From Agrococcus carbonis (GTDB taxonomy: Bacteria > Actinomycetota > Actinomycetes > Actinomycetales > Microbacteriaceae): a DNA stretch of 64,000 bases. This document shows, one piece after another, positions 16,772 to 25,059 of this stretch; position 1 is the stretch's first letter; each line of letters opens with the position of its first letter. The stretch covers positions 2,542,001-2,606,000 of the forward strand of contig NZ_LT629734.1 in assembly GCF_900104705.1 (NCBI RefSeq), written 5' to 3'. Both the position numbers and the translations under genes were made by a program. Below the pieces are notes generated by a model. It was not told the origin of the DNA and ran no database searches. It saw nothing but the letters and a program-made list of their open reading frames with translations.

Positions 16772-18214
16772 GTGCCCACCGCAGAATCGCTTCCCGTCGA
16801 CGACGCCCACCAGGCCTGGCTCGACCGTCTCGCCCTCGCAGAGCTCGCCGTGCCGATCCTCGGCCGCCTGTACCGGGAGCGCGACGTCGTCACGCACGTG
16901 CACGGGAAGAAGCTCGTCAACCAGTCGCCGATCGAGATCCTGAAGGCCCACAAGTGGGCACGGCGGGTGGGCGAGCGCGTGCTTCGCATCGAGGACACCA
17001 TGACCGTCCTGCGCGTCGTCGACGAGCTCGGCGTGCGCGGCATCTCGCTCGACCTCGGCCGCATCCTGGTCGACGCCCCCGAGACCGGCCTCGAGGAGTA
17101 CGCCCGCGAGCAGGTCGCGGCGCTCGAGTCGTGGTCGCAGGACGAGCCGACCGATGTCGTGCTCTACGGCTTCGGCCGCATCGGGCGGCTCCTCGCCCGC
17201 ATCCTCATCGGCCACGCCGGCAGCGGCCTCGGCCTGCGGCTGCGCGCCATCGTCGTGCGCAAGGGCGGCGAGGACGACCTCGAGAAGCGCGCGAGCCTGC
17301 TGCGCCGCGACTCCGTGCACGGCGCCTTCCAGGGCACGATCGACATCGACCGCGAGGCGAACACGATCCTCGCGAACGGCACCCTCATCCAGGTCATCTA
17401 CTCGGACGACCCGACGAGCATCGACTACACGAAGCACGGGATCCGCCGCGCGATCGTGGTCGACAACACCGGCCGCTGGCGCGACGAGGAGGGCCTCTCG
17501 CAGCACCTGCAGTGCCCCGGCGTCGAGCGCGTCGTGCTCACCGCGCCCGGCAAGGGCGCGCTCAAGAACATCGTCTTCGGCGTCAACCACGAGTCGATCG
17601 GCGCCGAGGACCCCGTCATCACCGCCGCATCCTGCACGACGAACGCGATCACGCCCGTGCTGCAGGTCGTCAACGACGCGTACGGCATCGAGCACGGCCA
17701 CGTCGAGACGGTGCACTCGTACACGAACGACCAGAACCTCATCGACAACTTCCACAAGGGCGCCCGCCGCGGCCGCTCGGCCGCGCTCAACATGGTGCTC
17801 ACCGAGACCGGCGCCGCGAAGGCGGTCTCGAAGGCACTGCCCGAGCTCGAGGGCAAGCTGACCGGCAACGCGATCCGCGTGCCGACGCCCGACGTGTCGA
17901 TGGCGATCCTCAACCTCTCGCTCGAGCAGGAGGTCGACCGCGAGGCGGTCAACGAGCTCCTGCGGCAGACCTCGCTCACGGGCGAGCTGCGGGCGCAGAT
18001 CGACTTCACGGATTCGGCCGAGGTCGTCTCGACCGACTTCGTGGGCAACAACCGCGCCGGCATCGTCGACGGTCTCGCGACCATCGCCTCCGGCCGCCAC
18101 CTGGTGCTCTATGTCTGGTACGACAACGAGTACGGCTACTCGTCGCAGGTCATCCGCGTGATCGAGCACATGGCCGACCAGATGGCCAAGGCACGGCAGC
18201 TGCAGCCGGCCTGA
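16772..18214 (+). CDS. gapB: Glyceraldehyde-3-phosphate dehydrogenase, long GapB type
   Basis: Interconverts glyceraldehyde-3-phosphate and 1,3-bisphosphoglycerate. At 480 aa it carries a ~130-residue N-terminal extension before the Rossmann motif VVLYGFGRIGRLLARIL. This is the layout of the GapB enzyme of Corynebacterium, which serves gluconeogenesis. The catalytic cysteine is in ITAASCTTNAITP, the phosphate-site histidine in VHSYTNDQNLID, and the C-terminal WYDNEYGYSSQV is intact. Cofactor preference (NADP-leaning in the corynebacterial relative) is inferred. The two palindromes upstream suggest dedicated transcriptional control. A strong terminator follows. Confidence 0.93.
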   Translation: MPTAESLPVDDAHQAWLDRLALAELAVPILGRLYRERDVVTHVHGKKLVNQSPIEILKAHKWARRVGERVLRIEDTMTVLRVVDELGVRGISLDLGRILVDAPETGLEEYAREQVAALESWSQDEPTDVVLYGFGRIGRLLARILIGHAGSGLGLRLRAIVVRKGGEDDLEKRASLLRRDSVHGAFQGTIDIDREANTILANGTLIQVIYSDDPTSIDYTKHGIRRAIVVDNTGRWRDEEGLSQHLQCPGVERVVLTAPGKGALKNIVFGVNHESIGAEDPVITAASCTTNAITPVLQVVNDAYGIEHGHVETVHSYTNDQNLIDNFHKGARRGRSAALNMVLTETGAAKAVSKALPELEGKLTGNAIRVPTPDVSMAILNLSLEQEVDREAVNELLRQTSLTGELRAQIDFTDSAEVVSTDFVGNNRAGIVDGLATIASGRHLVLYVWYDNEYGYSSQVIRVIEHMADQMAKARQLQPA

Positions 18215-18271: not shown

Positions 18272-18931
18272 TCACGCGTCGCGCGTGCGCGTGCCGTCCA
18301 CGTAGGCGAGCGCCGCGACGACCCGGCGGTGCAGCCCCTCGCCGTCGAGGATGCCGAGCTTCGGCAGGATGCGCGCCATGTGCGCCTCGACGGTGCGCTC
18401 GGCGAGCCAGAGCCGCTCGGCGATCGCGCGGTTCGAGAGGCCCTCGGCGACGAGCGCGAGCACCTCGCGCTCGCGATCGGTCAGCGGACCGAGCGGGTCG
18501 CGCCGTGGCCGGGCGAGCAGCGACTGCACGATCGCGGGGTCGAGCACCGACTCGCCGGCCGTGAGCCGCTCGAGGCAGTCGAGCAGCACGGCGCCCTCCG
18601 AGACGCGCTCCTTGAGCAGGTATCCCACGCCGTGCGGGCGCTCCTCGAGCAGGGTGAGCGCGTAGACGGGCTCGATGTGCTGCGAGAGCACGAGGACCGA
18701 GATCTGCGGGTGCTCGTCGAGGATGCGGCGGGCGGCCTCGATGCCCTCGGTCGAGTGGGTCGGGGGCATGCGCACGTCGATGACCGCGACGTCGGGGAGG
18801 CGCTGCGCGACCGCGGCGAGCAGCGCCCTCGCGTCCCCGGCTTCGGCGACGACGTCTGCGCCGGCGCGCTCGAGCACGCGCACGATGCCCTCGCGCGTCA
18901 GCAGGCTGTCCTCGGCGACGACTACCCGCAT
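18272..18931 (-). CDS. LuxR/NarL-family response regulator
   Basis: Last gene of the five-gene signalling operon. The 219-aa protein has an N-terminal receiver (VVVAEDSLLTREGIVRVL with acidic pocket ED, phospho-Asp in VAVIDVRMPP, Lys in GYLLKERV). A C-terminal LuxR helix-turn-helix follows (LTDREREVLALVAEGLSNRAIAERL, then ERTVEAHMARILPKLGI). Its ATG lies 10 bases inside the end of the preceding kinase gene. It is the presumed phosphate recipient of the two kinases. Target genes are unknown, with autoregulation of the operon a possibility. Confidence 0.93.
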   Translation of the reverse strand: MRVVVAEDSLLTREGIVRVLERAGADVVAEAGDARALLAAVAQRLPDVAVIDVRMPPTHSTEGIEAARRILDEHPQISVLVLSQHIEPVYALTLLEERPHGVGYLLKERVSEGAVLLDCLERLTAGESVLDPAIVQSLLARPRRDPLGPLTDREREVLALVAEGLSNRAIAERLWLAERTVEAHMARILPKLGILDGEGLHRRVVAALAYVDGTRTRDA

Positions 18932-20658
18932 GGCAGCTCCAGCGCGATCGGGTCCGCCCTGCTGCGCAGCCGGCCTCCGAGGGCGCGGGCGCGGTCGGCG
19001 ATCGCGCGCGCGTCGGCGGGAGCGAGTCGAGCGCCGTCGAGGCGCAGCTCGAGGCGTCGGTCGTCGCTCGAGAGGCGGATGCGGATGCGGTCGGCGCCGT
19101 CGACGATCGTCGCGCGGTCGGCGAGCCGGTAGGCGGTCAGCGCGCACGCGGCCTCGACCTCGGTGCCTCCTCGCGCGTCGAAGGACGTGGGGGTGTTCGC
19201 GCTGCGCGCGAGGGACTCGAGCGCGGCCGTCAACCCCGCATCGGAGAGCAGCACCGGGTACATGCCGTGCGCGACCGCGCGCAGCCGCTCGGCTGCCGCC
19301 GAGACCTCGGCGATGCACTGCTCGAGGGCGGCTGCCGCGTCGGCGTCGTCGCGTTCGAGGCTTCGCTCCTGCGCATCGCGCAGCGCGAAGACGGCGGCGA
19401 GCAGGAGGTGCTGCGCGCCGTCGTGCAGATCGCGCTCGGCCCTCCGCCGGGCGTCGTCGGCGGCGAGCACCTCGGCGCGGCGCGCAGCGCGGAGATCGGC
19501 GAGGCGGTGGAGCGACTCGGCGTGCGTGCGCGCCGCGTCGAGGGCGAGCGCGGTCGCGGGCCCGAGTGCGCGCTCGAGCTCCTCGCCCAGCGCCGCGCCG
19601 GCGGCGCTCCACCCGATGCGCGCGATCGGGCGACCGTCGCGTCGGACCGTGGCGAGGGTCGCCGCCCGGCCGCTCTCGGGTCGCGGCTCCCCGCGCTCGT
19701 CGACCCAGCCGCCCCCGTCGCCGAGGTCGAACGCGAGCGTCGCGGCGGGGTCGCCGAGCCGCCGCGCGATCGCGTCGCGCACCGAGGCGGGCGGGGTCAC
19801 CGCGATGATCTCGTCGGCGAGCGCGCCGAGCCTCGCCGATCGTCGGGCTCGTGCCGCGATCGCTCCGATGAGCGCGACGGCGAGCGCGACCGCGAGCGCG
19901 GCGCGCACGTCGAGCGCCGCGGGAGCGGCGAAGGCCGCCGGCCCGACCGTCGCGCGGGCGGTCGGCCCGAGCACCCACCACAGCTCGGCGCCGCAGAGCG
20001 CGGCGAGGGGGAGCGCGACCGCCCGGTCGGCGAGCTCCCTGGCGCGGAAGCCGGCGGCGACGGCCATCGCGCACGCCGCGGCGGCGCACGCGCCGGCGAT
20101 CGCGCGCACCGCGGCCGCGAGCAGCGCTGCCGCGCCGGGCACCGCGAGCGGCGGGTCGATCGACCCGCACCGCACGACGCAACCGGGGTCGAGCAGCGGA
20201 TCGCGCGTGAGCGCCAGCAGGAGCGCGCTGGCCGCCGCCGCACCATAGGCGACTCCGAGCCACCGCCCCGCCGGGACGGCGAGGAGGGTCGCCGCGAGGT
20301 GCAGGAGCGCCGCCGGCTGCAGGCTCGCGATCACGAGCGCCGCGCCTCGGACCACCGCATCCTCCGCCCAGAGCGCGAGCGCGAGCGCCGGCCAACCCGC
20401 CGCGAGCACGGCGATCGCCGCGGCCGGCCCGCGCCACGGCTGGCCGCGGAGCCACGCCGCGCCCACCGCCGCGACGGCGAGCGCGACGCCGGCGGCTTGC
20501 ACGAGCCACCGCTCGAGGGGCTGCTGCAGCCATTCTGCCGGCGGGAGCCCCGAGGCGTTCGGGATCGCCAGGGACGACGTGAGCGCCGACGTCGTCGCGG
20601 CGACCGCGGCCACGAGTGCGACGGCGAGGGAGGGCCGCGCGGCGGGGTGGCCGCTCAT
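18922..20658 (-). CDS. Membrane histidine kinase with intact H-box but degenerate ATPase domain
   Basis: A 578-aa protein. Residues ~1-320 hold roughly eight to ten hydrophobic segments, and the C-terminal third is kinase-like. The HisKA_3 H-box is canonical, RRRAERDLHDGAQHLLLAA, with phospho-acceptor His412. The following HATPase domain aligns by pattern (ACALTAYRLAD ... RALGGRLRSRADPIALELP) but its nucleotide-binding boxes have decayed. The N-box asparagine is absent (ADRATIVDGAD), the DDGxG G1 box reads LDGARL, and the glycine-rich G2 box reads ADARAIADRA. It probably cannot phosphorylate itself. It overlaps the upstream kinase gene by ATGA and the response regulator by 10 bases. The ligand is unknown. 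Confidence 0.85.
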   Translation of the reverse strand: MSGHPAARPSLAVALVAAVAATTSALTSSLAIPNASGLPPAEWLQQPLERWLVQAAGVALAVAAVGAAWLRGQPWRGPAAAIAVLAAGWPALALALWAEDAVVRGAALVIASLQPAALLHLAATLLAVPAGRWLGVAYGAAAASALLLALTRDPLLDPGCVVRCGSIDPPLAVPGAAALLAAAVRAIAGACAAAACAMAVAAGFRARELADRAVALPLAALCGAELWWVLGPTARATVGPAAFAAPAALDVRAALAVALAVALIGAIAARARRSARLGALADEIIAVTPPASVRDAIARRLGDPAATLAFDLGDGGGWVDERGEPRPESGRAATLATVRRDGRPIARIGWSAAGAALGEELERALGPATALALDAARTHAESLHRLADLRAARRAEVLAADDARRRAERDLHDGAQHLLLAAVFALRDAQERSLERDDADAAAALEQCIAEVSAAAERLRAVAHGMYPVLLSDAGLTAALESLARSANTPTSFDARGGTEVEAACALTAYRLADRATIVDGADRIRIRLSSDDRRLELRLDGARLAPADARAIADRARALGGRLRSRADPIALELPCG

Positions 20659-21977
20659 GACCGCTCCAGCGCTCCGGGCACCGTCATGACGATGCTCGTG
20701 CCCGCGCCGCTCGCGGAGTCGAGCGCGAGCGTGCCCCCGACAGCGCTCGCGCGCTCGCGCATGCCGGCGAGCCCGCCTGCTGGCGCGTCGCTCGCTCCTC
20801 CGACGCCGTCGTCGTCGATCCGCAGGTCGACGCCGTCGTCGACGCACAGCCGCATCCGCAGCGTCGTCGCACGCGCGTGCTTGACGGCGTTCGCGATCGC
20901 CTCGGCGGCGACGTAGTAGACCGCGAGCGCGACCTCGTCGCGCACGGGCGGCAGGGCATCCTCATCCGGCAGGGTGAGCGCCACCGGGATGGGCGCGGTG
21001 TCGGCGAGGCGGCGGAGGGCCGACACGAGCCCGTCGTCGAGCGGATGCGGCTGCAGACCGCGGCCGAGCGCGTCGAGCTCGCGGATGGCGTCGAGCAGGA
21101 GCTCGCGTCCTCGCGCGAGCGATGCTCCCGCATCGCCGTCGAGCGCGACCGGCAGCGACTCCACCGCGCGCGCGAGCCGCTCGACGGCCACGACCTCGAG
21201 CTCGGCCCGCAGCGCCTGCCGCTCCCTCGCGTCCGCCGCCGCGAGCCGCGCCGCCGAGCGCTCGGTCGCCGCCACGACCGCGGCGAGCGCCGCGGCCCGG
21301 TCATCGAGCCGCGCCCGGAGCCGCCGCGCCGTGGCACGCGCCTCCCGCGCCTCGTCGTCCTGCGCGCCATCGGCCACGGAGGAGCGCAGCGCCCGCTCGA
21401 GCCGTGGCTGCGCATCGCCGACCTCGACGGCGAGGTCGGTGGCCCAGTGCGGCTCCGCACGCGCCGCGAGCAGGATGAGCCCCGCGATGAGCGCCTGCGC
21501 CATCGCGTATCCGAGCAGCACCGCGAGCGACCACTCCCGCGGCAGCTGCAGCAGTCGCAGGAGCGCGGGTGCACCGATCGCGAGCGCCGCGAGCCACGCA
21601 GCGGCGCGCCATGCCGGCAGCCGTGAGCGGGTGACCGACCGGTGACGGCGCTCGGCGGCCGCCGCGAGCGGCAGCGCGGCGGCGAGGCCGAGCCAGGCCC
21701 ACGGCACGGCGGCGGCAGCGGGCACGACCGCGACGACGCTCGCGACGACGATGAGCGCTCGCGCCGCCCACGAGCGGGGCCACCGCGCGCCGCCGCTCAG
21801 CAGCAGGTGGAGGAGCGCGGCGCGATGCCACAGGGCGGCGACGGGCCAGATCGCGGCCGCGAGCCACGCGAGGGCGAGCGCCGCCGCCGGCACCGCGAGC
21901 CGTGGGCGCCTGCGGGTCGCCAGCGCCACGAGCAGCCAGGCGCCGGCGAGCAGCAGGGCTACCCGATCCTGGTCCAC
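20655..21977 (-). CDS. Membrane histidine kinase-like ATPase lacking the phospho-acceptor histidine
   Basis: A 440-aa protein with about six hydrophobic segments in residues ~1-185, a coiled-coil-like region (~200-260) and a kinase core. The HATPase domain is complete: N-box VAAEAIANAVKHA (Asn363), G1 DLRIDDDGVGG, G2 GGLAGMRERASAVGGTL. The H-box position reads RQALRAELEVVAVERLA, with Glu261 where the ELHD histidine should be, and no nearby His substitutes. It should bind ATP but not carry a phosphoryl group. GTG 21977 overlaps the preceding lipoprotein gene by 19 bases. The gene is coupled by ATGA to the kinase that has the His. Confidence 0.83.
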   Translation of the reverse strand: MDQDRVALLLAGAWLLVALATRRRPRLAVPAAALALAWLAAAIWPVAALWHRAALLHLLLSGGARWPRSWAARALIVVASVVAVVPAAAAVPWAWLGLAAALPLAAAAERRHRSVTRSRLPAWRAAAWLAALAIGAPALLRLLQLPREWSLAVLLGYAMAQALIAGLILLAARAEPHWATDLAVEVGDAQPRLERALRSSVADGAQDDEAREARATARRLRARLDDRAAALAAVVAATERSAARLAAADARERQALRAELEVVAVERLARAVESLPVALDGDAGASLARGRELLLDAIRELDALGRGLQPHPLDDGLVSALRRLADTAPIPVALTLPDEDALPPVRDEVALAVYYVAAEAIANAVKHARATTLRMRLCVDDGVDLRIDDDGVGGASDAPAGGLAGMRERASAVGGTLALDSASGAGTSIVMTVPGALERS

Positions 21978-23431
21978 GGGCCGCCGCCGAAGATGCCCTG
22001 GATGAGCAGGTCGCTGCCGTGCCCCGAGCGGACGTCGGTCAGCACGAGCGCATCGTCCTCGAGCGCCCAGCGAGCGGAGAAGAGCACCCGCCCGGCCGCC
22101 TCGCCGCACCCCGGCCCGGCGGGCCCGAGCTCGACGACGATGACGTCGCGGTCGACGCGATACGTGCTCCCCGGGCAATCGCTGCCCTCGGGGGGACCGA
22201 AGACGCCGTCCCGCAGCAGCAGGTCCCAGACCCCTGCGTGCCCTGCCGCATCCGACCGATGCACGCCGCGCGCCTCGAGATCTGCCGCCGACACCTCTCG
22301 GCGGTAGTGACCCTCGGGAAAGGGTCCGGGATCGCTCGCGACCGGCGTCGGCGCGGTCGTCGGCTCGGCCGCCGCCGAAGCGGCGCCCGAACATGCCGCG
22401 ACGGGCTCGGCGCGCACGCCGAGCCCGCCCTGCAGCCGCTCGATGCGATCGGCGAGCCGGTCGAGGTCGACGGATGCGCGCAGCTCGGCCACGCGGTCGG
22501 CCACCGCAGCGCGCCACTCGGCGCGCGCCTCGGCGCCAGCGAGCACGACGCGCGCACCGGGATTCCGCGCGCACATTGCGCGCGCCTCGGCGGCGTCCGT
22601 GGGACGCGACTCGGCCGCCCACGCAGCGGTGTCCCGCGCGGCGCTCGCGATCGCCTCGCGATGCGCCGGCGAGAGCGCGTCGAGCGCGTCGTCGTTGCCG
22701 ACGAGGGCGAAGGCGAGCGGATGCGTCGCGACGTCGCCCGCGGTCGTCGGCGCGTCGTAGAAGGCGTCGGCGAGCGCGAACATGCTGTCGAGCCACGGCT
22801 GCGGGCCGTCCTCGCGCGGCTCCGCGCCGAGCGCCTCGATCGTCGCCCAGACGTCCTCCGAGCGCGGCGCCCGCACGCTCGCGCCCGCGAGGTCGGCCGG
22901 ACGGAGGGCGGCGGAGCCGTCGCCGAAGAGGTGCCGCATGCCGCCGGGCACGAGCGCGAGCGGAGTCGCGCCCGTCGGCTCGATGCCGGCGAGCAGGGCG
23001 TCGGCGAGGTCGCTCGTCGCGATCGCGTCGAGCGCCTCCTCATCGGCGACGAGGAACGGCACCTGCAGCACGCGCAGCGTGTCGACCCCCAACGCATCCC
23101 ACGCCGACGCATGGACGAGCGCGAGGTCGAGCTCGCCGTCGAGCGCCGCGCCCGCGAGCACCTGGTTCCAGCCCGGCGACTCGCCGTCCTCGGGGAAGCG
23201 GCGCACCGCGACGTCGACGTCGCCGCCGGTCGCCGCCTCCACCCTGGCCGCGAACTCCTCGGCCGCGTCGAAGCTGAAGCGACCGGGCGGGTCGGCGACG
23301 CCCATCTCGAGGTGGATGACCGGCTCGGCGAAGCCCGCGATCCCGACCTCGGACGCGGTGCACCCCGTCAGCGCCGCTGCGGCCAGCAGCCCCGCGGCGA
23401 CGCTCGCGGGGCGGCCACTCGATGGGTGCAT
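21959..23431 (-). CDS. Lipoprotein with DctP-like solute-binding domain (second copy)
   Basis: A 490-aa predicted lipoprotein with a signal peptide ending LAAAALTGC (lipobox Cys24). A TRAP DctP-like binding domain spans about residues 40-330 (FSFDAAEEFAARVEAATGGDVDV, WNQVLAGAALDGELDLALVHAS, VPFLVADEEALDAI). A C-terminal ~120-residue beta-type domain contains SDCPGSTYRVDRD and a second Cys near GPGCGEAAG. No TRAP membrane subunits accompany it, so it is more likely a sensor subunit for the kinases encoded next. ATG 23431 has GGGAGG upstream and gives a canonical lipoprotein signal. An alternative ATG at 23488 overlaps the stop of the upstream paralogue. Confidence 0.78.
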   Translation of the reverse strand: MHPSSGRPASVAAGLLAAAALTGCTASEVGIAGFAEPVIHLEMGVADPPGRFSFDAAEEFAARVEAATGGDVDVAVRRFPEDGESPGWNQVLAGAALDGELDLALVHASAWDALGVDTLRVLQVPFLVADEEALDAIATSDLADALLAGIEPTGATPLALVPGGMRHLFGDGSAALRPADLAGASVRAPRSEDVWATIEALGAEPREDGPQPWLDSMFALADAFYDAPTTAGDVATHPLAFALVGNDDALDALSPAHREAIASAARDTAAWAAESRPTDAAEARAMCARNPGARVVLAGAEARAEWRAAVADRVAELRASVDLDRLADRIERLQGGLGVRAEPVAACSGAASAAAEPTTAPTPVASDPGPFPEGHYRREVSAADLEARGVHRSDAAGHAGVWDLLLRDGVFGPPEGSDCPGSTYRVDRDVIVVELGPAGPGCGEAAGRVLFSARWALEDDALVLTDVRSGHGSDLLIQGIFGGGPWTRIG

Positions 23432-23484: not shown

Positions 23485-25059
23485 TCATTCCGCGCCGACC
23501 CGTTCGAGGGGGAGCGTGCCCAGCAGCACCGCGTTGAAGCCGAGCATCGAGAAGGGCTGCGGTACGCGCCAGTCGGTGAGCGTGAGCCGATCGCCCTCGA
23601 CCGCCCAAGCCGCGTCGACCGCCACCTCGCCGAGGCCGGCGCCGCAGTGCCACTCGCTCGGACGGGAGGTGGCGGTCATCACGAGCCGGTCTCCGTCGAT
23701 CGCGTACGTGCCGGGGCACGAGTCGCCCGAGGGCACGTGCAGGAGGTCGTAGCGGCCGCGGTCGAGCGTGAGGCGCAGCTCGCCGGCGTTCCCCCGCGCG
23801 ACCTCGGCGGACTCCGGGTTGTCGTCCCCGCCGAGCGCGGCGGCGAGGTCGGCGACCTCCCACTCGACGGCGTACGTGCCGTCGAGACCCGCAGCGGCGG
23901 CGTCGGGACCCGCCGATCCCGGGCCCGCGCCGGGCTCTGGGCTCGACGCCGGATCGGGGGTGGCGGGCGCGGCGGCGTCCTCGCACGTCGCGATGTCGAT
24001 CCGGGCGGCCTCGATGCCGTCGGTGAGCGTCGCGATCGCGTCGAGGTGGTCGGCGACCACCGCATCCGCCCGCAGCGCGCCGAGCACCGGTTCGAAGGCG
24101 CGCTCGATCTCGCGCACCGCGTCGTCGCCCGCGAGCGCGAGGCTCGCGCCGGCGCTGCACGCCTCGGCGGCGAGCGCCTGCTCGTCGTCGGCCCGGTCGA
24201 GGGCGTCGTCGGCGACAGCCGCGATCGCGCGCAGCACGGCCTCGCGGTCCTCGCCGAGCGCCTCGAGGGCGTCGCCGTCGGCGATGAGCACCGCGGTCGA
24301 GGGCCAGAGCCCCAGATCGACCGTCATGGTGCGAGCCCGCCAGTCTGCGTTGCGCGCGAGGAAGGCGAGCGAGTTCTCGTAGGCGCGGATGCTGCCGTCG
24401 GCGATGCGGGCGTTCCGCTCGCTCGGCGACGCGTCGACGTTGACGGCTCCGAGTGCCTCGATGGACATCGCGTTGATGTCGCCGTGCCAGCTGTAGAACG
24501 AGATGCCGTCGAAGTCGGCGAGCGTGTGCAGCGGCGCGTCGGCGATCGGGCGACGGATGGGCCCGGCGAGCACCGCCAGCCCCTCGACGCCGAGCGGTTC
24601 GACGCCGGCGAGCATCGCGTCGGGCAGGTCGCTCGCGAGCACGGCGCGCTGCGCCTCCACCGAGTCGAGCACCATCGGTGCGATGAGCGCGTCGAAGTCG
24701 CGCACCCCGAGCTCGCGGAAGGCACGGGCCCCGACGAGCCCGAGGTCGATCGCGCCGTCGGCGACGCCGCGCACGATGCGCTGCTCGACGCCGAGCGCCT
24801 GCGAGTCGAACTCCGACGCGACGTCGATGGTGACGCGGCCATCGGTGGCGGCGGGGAGGGCGTCCTGCAGCGCCTCGACCTCGGCGTCGGCGAGGCCCGC
24901 GACGAAGCCTAGGCGCAGCGCCACGGGCGAGGGGTCGGCCGGCGGGGCGGCGGAGGGGGAAGGGACGGCGCCCGGCGCGGAGCCGGATGCGGCGCATCCG
25001 GTCGTGAGCAGCAGGGCGGTCAGGATGGCGCCGATGCGCGCCGGCTGGTTCGTGTGCAT
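23485..25059 (-). CDS. Lipoprotein with DctP-like solute-binding domain (first copy)
   Basis: First gene of the signalling operon. The 524-aa protein has a signal peptide with lipobox LTTGC (Cys22). A DctP-like domain spans ~residues 50-330 (LRLGFVAGLADAEVEALQDAL, GAIDLGLVGARAFRELGV, HTLADFDGISFYSW). A Pro/Ala/Gly linker follows at ~395-425, then a C-terminal domain with SGDSCPGTYAIDGDRLVM and a paired Cys in EWHCGAGLG, homologous by motif to that of the next gene. The paralogues probably arose by duplication. Surface anchoring, and kinases rather than DctQM downstream, suggest ligand sensing. The start is set by the hexamer TACCGT 6 bases upstream. Confidence 0.78.
   Translation of the reverse strand: MHTNQPARIGAILTALLLTTGCAASGSAPGAVPSPSAAPPADPSPVALRLGFVAGLADAEVEALQDALPAATDGRVTIDVASEFDSQALGVEQRIVRGVADGAIDLGLVGARAFRELGVRDFDALIAPMVLDSVEAQRAVLASDLPDAMLAGVEPLGVEGLAVLAGPIRRPIADAPLHTLADFDGISFYSWHGDINAMSIEALGAVNVDASPSERNARIADGSIRAYENSLAFLARNADWRARTMTVDLGLWPSTAVLIADGDALEALGEDREAVLRAIAAVADDALDRADDEQALAAEACSAGASLALAGDDAVREIERAFEPVLGALRADAVVADHLDAIATLTDGIEAARIDIATCEDAAAPATPDPASSPEPGAGPGSAGPDAAAAGLDGTYAVEWEVADLAAALGGDDNPESAEVARGNAGELRLTLDRGRYDLLHVPSGDSCPGTYAIDGDRLVMTATSRPSEWHCGAGLGEVAVDAAWAVEGDRLTLTDWRVPQPFSMLGFNAVLLGTLPLERVGAE

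Follow-up and report, generated by a model that had tools for sequence, protein, structure and literature searches.

A putative split sensor kinase encoded beside DctP-type lipoproteins in Agrococcus carbonis and other actinobacteria

Introduction

In Mycobacterium tuberculosis, the ATP-binding and the histidine-bearing parts of a kinase are separate proteins, Rv0600c/Rv0601c, accompanied by the response regulator TcrA. Here we describe five neighbouring genes of Agrococcus carbonis that probably encode a split sensor kinase together with two DctP-type solute-binding lipoproteins and a regulator; we liken them to the mycobacterial proteins by description only. The genes lie in a 64,000-nucleotide stretch of contig NZ_LT629734.1 (positions 2,542,001 to 2,606,000), referred to below as the window. 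Another protein to be borne in mind is Spo0B, a phosphorelay component in which a DHp-like bundle with a histidine is joined to an ATP-binding-like fold.

CheA3/CheA4 of Rhodobacter sphaeroides resemble the window pair in having the catalytic part and the phosphorylated domain on separate proteins; the phosphorylated partner, CheA3, acts in its free form as the main phosphatase, and the splitting of the kinase has been argued to permit switch-like responses (PMC3591291). Unlike the window proteins, they belong to the CheA class and possess a separate P1 domain (PMC3591291), whereas both halves of the window pair appear to keep DHp and CA folds, to have lost residues within membrane kinases of the HisKA_3 type, and to be accompanied by lipoproteins. 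Hik36-Hik43 with Rre6 of Synechocystis likewise spreads a kinase over two genes with a regulator, but is of the CheA/PilL type with an HPt domain (PMC7656254).

Among undivided proteins, DesK offers the nearest solved fold for the histidine-bearing protein of the window (P0001), with which it shares a HisKA_3 DHp and a CA fold, although DesK carries both the histidine and the ATP site in one kinase (PMC5231405). ChpT, like P0001, has a DHp-like bundle with a histidine and an ATP-binding-like fold, and no ATP was bound in ChpT crystals; unlike the window protein, it is part of a phosphorelay rather than a membrane sensor paired with an ATP-only partner (PMC3433190). Activation of a sensor kinase by a solute-binding protein (SBP), as we propose here, is described for BctC with BctE/BctD in Bordetella. 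In contrast to the window lipoproteins, BctC is of the TctC type and part of a transporter, and the BctE/BctD kinase is not described as split (PMC9602780, PMC5812351).

CheA-type split kinases and SBP-driven kinases have each already been described, and no report of their combination in HisKA_3 membrane kinases was found among the titles and abstract openings listed by searches of open-access literature, with most subscription journals outside their scope. Nor did these listings show any DctP-linked or HisKA_3 split kinase of actinobacteria. Sources that name such halves give them simply as signal transduction histidine kinases, and for the lipoproteins the only matches are to general models of tripartite ATP-independent periplasmic (TRAP) transport, so the unit is easily missed.

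Results

The five genes probably make up a single operon that encodes a split sensor kinase dependent on binding proteins; the split-kinase part, taken alone, we regard as highly probable. All run in the same direction on the minus strand, from 25059 to 18272, in the order SBP1, SBP2, ATP-only half, His-only half, regulator:

23485..25059, minus strand: SBP1, DctP-type solute-binding lipoprotein, 524 amino acids (PF03480, E 5.8e-14; start of our choice)
21959..23431, minus strand: SBP2, second DctP-type lipoprotein, 490 amino acids (PF03480, E 1.8e-22; start set by the lipobox)
20655..21977, minus strand: ATP-only sensor kinase half P0002, 440 amino acids, GTG start (HATPase_c above cut-off, no HisKA_3)
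21195..21197, minus strand: codon of Glu261, at the position of the phospho-acceptor His (alignment A2, non-His in 28/30 rows)
20889..20891, minus strand: Asn363 of the N box NAVKHA (invariant, 30/30 A2 rows)
20799..20813, minus strand: G1 box DDGVG, residues 389-393 (D389, D390, G391 and G393 invariant, 30/30 A2 rows)
18922..20658, minus strand: His-only sensor kinase half P0001, 578 amino acids (HisKA_3 only)
19423..19425, minus strand: codon of His412, phospho-acceptor of the H-box DLHDGAQH (invariant, 29/29 A1 rows)
20167..20181, minus strand: Cys160 and Cys164, between predicted membrane helices (invariant, 29/29 A1 rows)
18272..18931, minus strand: response regulator, receiver and LuxR-type DNA-binding domain, 219 amino acids (Response_reg E 2.7e-15, GerE E 1.9e-16)

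The kinase genes meet in GGTCATGAGC, an ATGA overlap, and the His-only gene shares 10 bases with the regulator gene (18272-18931); both couplings had been noted in an earlier reading of this DNA (the original prediction) and are confirmed in the sequence. Upstream, SBP2 ends within the ATP-only gene, its stop overlapping that gene's start by 19 bases, and a gap of 53 bases separates SBP1 from SBP2.

P0001 comprises a membrane domain, a DHp with His412 and a CA-like domain whose N, G1 and G2 boxes are unrecognisable; P0002 comprises a membrane domain, a DHp hairpin without the histidine and intact N and G1 boxes. In a Pfam search that reported matches up to E 10, P0001 matched HisKA_3 (E 1.9e-4; 22.4 bits, slightly below the 24-bit cut-off) and no HATPase model, while P0002 matched HATPase_c above the cut-off (E 9.8e-8, 32.9 bits) and not HisKA_3. 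At the H-box position the alignments place His412 in P0001 and Glu261 in P0002. The profiles and alignments thereby bear out what had been proposed for the pair, namely that one protein keeps its H-box histidine without a recognisable ATP site and that in the other a glutamate stands for the phospho-acceptor: no ATP site emerged in P0001 and no HisKA_3 H-box in P0002. All three ATP-binding boxes of P0002 had been called intact, which holds for N and G1; in the G2 box, AGGLAGM, the alignment shows Ala replacing the first Gly of GxG. Neither protein fits an NCBIfam model above cut-off, and BLASTP gave no significant alignment of P0001 with P0002. The window's ATP-only half also lacks most of the membrane-to-DHp stretch present in relatives of about 550 amino acids.

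We compared each half with its homologues in alignments of 29 rows (A1, for P0001) and 30 rows (A2, for P0002), which were picked mainly by Pfam column and show conservation within a kind, not frequency. PF07730 (HisKA_3) was matched at E ≤0.01 by 28 of the 29 A1 rows versus 3 of the 30 A2 rows, and the HisKA_3 H-box of NarL-type systems is present in the His-only half alone. Frequencies come from the unselected homologue searches, in each of which scoring was confined to the candidates with the most words in common (7995 and 7998). All 101 relatives of P0001 had the histidine, 60 without N and G1 boxes together and 41 with both. Among the best 120 of 258 relatives of P0002, N and G1 boxes were present in all 119 others, of which 33 lacked the histidine, 16 had it without the motif HDxxxQ and 70 had it within HDxxxQ. 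These counts are not independent, many rows being close kin and some partial proteins. Rows lacking both halves numbered 0 of 220, a count that His- or ATP-bearing queries bias towards zero.

Complete homologues of either protein, which the original prediction had named as evidence against it, occur only at a distance (41/101 for P0001; at least 70/119 for P0002 among the matches listed). Close relatives share the defects: in A1 the full-length proteins nearest to P0001, five in number (P0003-P0007), have that of P0001, and the nearest relative of P0002 (P0105) has that of P0002. Chance, or decay in a single genome, is ruled out as the origin of the two defects by the unselected homologue counts together with the recurrence described below. 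As a separate observation, a Chloroflexi metagenome-assembled genome (MAG; L139:6947-9181) encodes a kinase minus the histidine and most ATP boxes, directly after a paralogue with both.

We counted 13 His-only genes in 11 actinobacterial genomes, window included and loci L129 and L134 left out. An ATP-positive partner kinase lies on the same contig in 11 of the 13 cases, and phmmer, with the regulator of the window as query, found a similar regulator at 12 of the 13 loci, the contig of the remaining locus ending there. Gene order and strand vary between loci while the gene set is kept, which argues for a functional tie. A G1 box was scored by its first Asp and two Gly; an earlier classification required the second Asp too and scored DNG as missing. 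The two halves appear by these motifs to occur together, with exceptions in genome G601 and, on the ATP side, G533. Hosts of the pairs are Streptomyces olivochromogenes, Humibacillus xanthopallidus, a Micromonospora, a Solirubrobacterales MAG, a Kribbella and Acrocarpospora macrocephala; G442 and G380 have two loci each, one of the latter with broken frames, and His-only genes are also found in G601 and in G630, where both kinase genes sit at the ends of different contigs. The broken locus (L263:2202-6843, G380, a MAG) has frame breaks in both its His-only and its lipoprotein gene, from sequencing error or decay. Locus L191/L264 (G595) is cut by a contig end. Widening the search to 27 genomes of G442's class gave matches solely in G442, G601 and G630.

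The association was also seen in 80 fetched loci, a sample of the matching loci in the genomes scanned. An ATP-positive kinase without HDxxxQ was present in 7 of the 8 His-only loci (one of the seven being L071, whose partner H-box lies in a run of N and is unreadable) versus 1 of the 72 others, and this single exception, L067, is a kinase of another type. The eighth His-only call, L129, is a gene truncated where its contig stops and was kept in this table. A tandem in an Acidimicrobiales MAG (L134:3784-9968), likewise kept there, consists of kinases of another membrane type, one His-only and one with Asp replacing the histidine (LDSGPQQ) and full ATP boxes; no DctP lipoprotein was present in the fetched stretch, and kinase splits of this sort may have arisen more than once.

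Among other Microbacteriaceae, where the original prediction had proposed to look for the pair, it was not found in the 29 loci fetched. Across 299 genomes of the window's family, with scoring limited to four or five candidates per genome and weaker A1 matches left unclassified, A1 was matched in 166 and 30 loci were fetched; all 29 outside the window (L143-L171) hold single complete kinases with the histidine and N box. In these 299 genomes a full-length lipoprotein match occurred in the window genome alone, and four other family genomes gave lipoprotein matches of 198-229 bits to the DctP part only. The system looks rare in this family, and acquisition from elsewhere is possible.

The motif HDxxxQ stays with one half. 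Of the His-only locus proteins, 11 of 12 carry it, as do 23 of 29 A1 rows, but no ATP-only locus protein (0 of 11) and no A2 row (0 of 30) does; the locus table excludes the His-only protein of L263 and the ATP-only protein of L071. In DesK, Gln193, five residues past His188, sits where it can position the water that dephosphorylation requires, and in NarX the histidine itself is nonessential for dephosphorylation (PMC5231405).

The halves also diverge in step. Over 10 pairs (G630 genes on separate contigs included; broken L263 and unreadable L071 excluded), partner distances correlate with r 0.869 (permutation p 5e-5), and on DHp alone with r 0.677 (p 7e-4). The correlation shows joint inheritance; it fits contact between the halves without proving it. 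In a DHp+CA tree of 63 rows, 34 of them complete kinases hand-chosen from the loci, the 17 His-only rows form one group (support 98) and the 12 ATP-only rows another (87), the latter lying among the complete kinases.

The lipoproteins are a further part of the locus. SBP1 and SBP2 each consist of PF03480 followed by a C-terminal part of somewhat more than 100 residues that matches no Pfam family; all 10 relatives in alignment A4 match PF03480 (DctP) and no other family, and of the NCBIfam models both lipoproteins pass the general TRAP_S1 alone. DctP members are predicted to bind dicarboxylates (PMC9602780). A second copy of the C-terminal part seems to follow the lipoprotein at L066.

A profile built from four sequences (window, G442 twice), which come from three of the 12 loci, found the lipoprotein near the His-only gene at 12 of 13 split loci, window included; the locus flanks were mostly about 6 kb, shorter at contig ends. 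By this search an SBP gene beside the kinase genes, as in binding-protein-dependent three-component systems, is the rule (12/13 loci). Within the 80 fetched loci the lipoprotein was present in 6 of 8 His-only loci versus 0 of 72 without a His-only gene, and it was absent from 22 further complete-kinase loci. Most loci have one copy, the window has two upstream, and tandem arrays of four frames in G601 (L259) and five in G630 (L303) were seen, those of G630 on another contig with a regulator-like frame at its end.

In a 396-genome sample, His-only matches of at least 476 bits and lipoprotein matches above 330 bits fell in the same five genomes, the next lipoprotein match reaching 289 bits in the DctP part only; three (A1, A2) or four (lipoprotein) candidates were scored per genome, so that absences are not firm. 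Since A4 rows were drawn from three of these five genomes, G601 and G630 are the independent cases. Lipoprotein matches of 180-290 bits to the DctP part (G479, G557, G352, G564, G661) had no kinase within 4-12 kb by simple codon-position gene calls. A search of the window genome for the TRAP membrane subunit DctM found none near the window genes; its matches fall near 1.55 Mb (a weak one), 1.68 Mb and 1.70 Mb, far from the window, which spans 2.54-2.61 Mb. The genome's TRAP SBP (1700704-1701717), which adjoins a DctM gene (1699346-1700611), matches only the DctP part (7-344 of 488), without the extra C-terminal part.

Structure models add to this picture. The P0001 model (predicted local distance difference test score, pLDDT, 86; predicted template modelling score, pTM, 0.70) shows membrane helices, a small alpha/beta domain, a long DHp hairpin and a CA-like domain; that of P0002 reached pLDDT 86 and pTM 0.51. 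By-eye secondary structure gives P0001 five residues (542-546) between a strand and the next helix of its CA-like domain, and P0002 12 residues (390-401) at the like place, the site of G1 and the ATP lid. Foldseek ranked DesK first for P0001 (3ehf, E 3.3e-4) and ChpT (4fpp) at 50. The CA fold of P0001 thus seems, from the model, to be kept while the ATP boxes are lost. A simple pattern for C-x(1-3)-C before the DHp was found in 12/12 His-only proteins, 0/11 ATP-only proteins and 21/99 complete kinases, and we would guess that Cys160/Cys164 is a candidate docking or redox site.

Discussion

The recurrence of the pair, the divergence of its halves in step and the confinement of HDxxxQ to one of them strongly back the split kinase of the original prediction, in which the histidine and the ATP site are, as far as motifs tell, on separate proteins. 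In such a kinase the DHp helices of the two halves would associate to give an asymmetric heterodimer, the ATP-only half would use its CA domain to phosphorylate the histidine of the His-only half in trans, and the phosphoryl group would then pass to the LuxR-type regulator. Dephosphorylation of the regulator would be expected on the His-only half, the sole holder of HDxxxQ in most members, so that the balance would depend on how much of each half is present and on how the halves pair. The presence of DctP-type lipoproteins at the locus shifts the reading from the AND gate of two sensors first envisaged towards a binding-protein-dependent system: the lipoproteins would dock on one or both membrane domains and control activity according to the extracellular ligand that they bind, which is probably an organic acid. 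AND-type logic of two inputs is possible. More tentatively, and with the odds somewhat against it, these loci could represent a recurring actinobacterial system built on an obligate, asymmetric heterodimer of membrane kinases that is gated by orphan two-domain DctP lipoproteins. The placing of kinase and phosphatase on different subunits would then yield a switch-like response, and separate inputs could enter through each half or through each lipoprotein copy, of which a system has one to five.

Several observations weigh against this interpretation. Linkage of the genes could reflect shared regulation instead of contact. In the window and its five relatives P0003-P0007 (6/29 A1 rows) the phosphatase Gln is replaced by His, which makes a phosphatase role doubtful there. 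The histidine is kept in 2 of 30 A2 rows and in 3 of 11 locus partners (L262, L263, L076), none of the three with HDxxxQ; these partners may represent an intermediate stage. Because eroded CA domains may attract each other, the tree was repeated on the DHp alone, and with these few columns the two groups were not recovered (3 and 2 changes), nor were they rejected (approximately unbiased test, p-AU 0.341 and 0.515). The His-only gene of G601 has no partner on its 12.3-kb contig or among three candidates scored in a genome 89% complete, and the best match there to the ATP-only alignment is the His-only gene itself. Conversely, an ATP-positive kinase of G533 (L265:3265-5238) carries Asp in place of the histidine (DLDDEVQ), and neither a His-only gene nor a lipoprotein was found on its 5.7-kb contig; with 362 bits against A2, where the five strongest partners reach 646-720 bits, this kinase may belong to another subfamily. 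G533, the absent G601 partner, the unreadable H-box of L071 and the few candidates scored per genome lower our confidence in the best explanation.

The alternative that departs least from a binding-protein-dependent split kinase accepts the kinase as proposed but explains its linkage to the lipoproteins otherwise: these would not gate the sensors and could, for instance, be controlled by the regulator and feed a distant transporter. The lipoprotein genes are indeed often on the opposite strand, and the window genome has true TRAP genes at another site (SBP 1700704-1701717 beside DctM). We consider this account unlikely, if the foremost of the rivals, given the coincidence of lipoprotein and His-only matches over the 396-genome sample, the overlap of the SBP2 gene with a kinase gene in the window, and the lack of the extra C-terminal part in the genome's own TRAP SBP.

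Less probable still is that the His-only protein is a membrane-bound phosphotransferase or phosphatase resembling ChpT, fed by another complete kinase, with the ATP-only protein a separate modulator. By model and motifs P0001 does combine a DHp bearing a histidine with a CA-like fold without an ATP site, as ChpT does (4fpp, rank 50; PMC3433190); the window genome holds seven other HisKA_3 matches, G601 has a His-only gene whose partner was not found among the contig genes and three candidates scored, and for evolved ChrS and HrrS there is a report of a pseudokinase that works via its kinase paralogue (PMC9491836). Against a separate modulator speak the ATP-positive partner, which shares a contig with the His-only gene at 11 of 13 loci, its divergence in step with the His-only half, and N and G1 boxes kept in 30/30 A2 rows; moreover, the regulator is the sole receiver domain among the five genes, hybrid kinases elsewhere in the genome lying outside that search. 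That both proteins are decaying paralogues, pseudokinases that merely sequester or scaffold, strikes us as very improbable. The motif losses, the slightly altered G2 of the window and the broken frames of L263 would agree with decay, but the losses are complementary, with 0/220 homologue rows lacking both halves, and the frames stay open in distant actinobacteria.

If the split kinase is real, membrane kinases of this kind would have been divided by residue loss in two whole kinases, not by cutting of a gene, with one direction of phosphotransfer left. The system would then offer a clean model for asymmetric dimers, for the separation of kinase and phosphatase, and for SBP-driven sensing in actinobacteria.

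Beyond the five genes, a plus-strand frame (16772-18214), by eye a candidate glyceraldehyde-3-phosphate dehydrogenase, has its end 57 bases away from that of the regulator gene.

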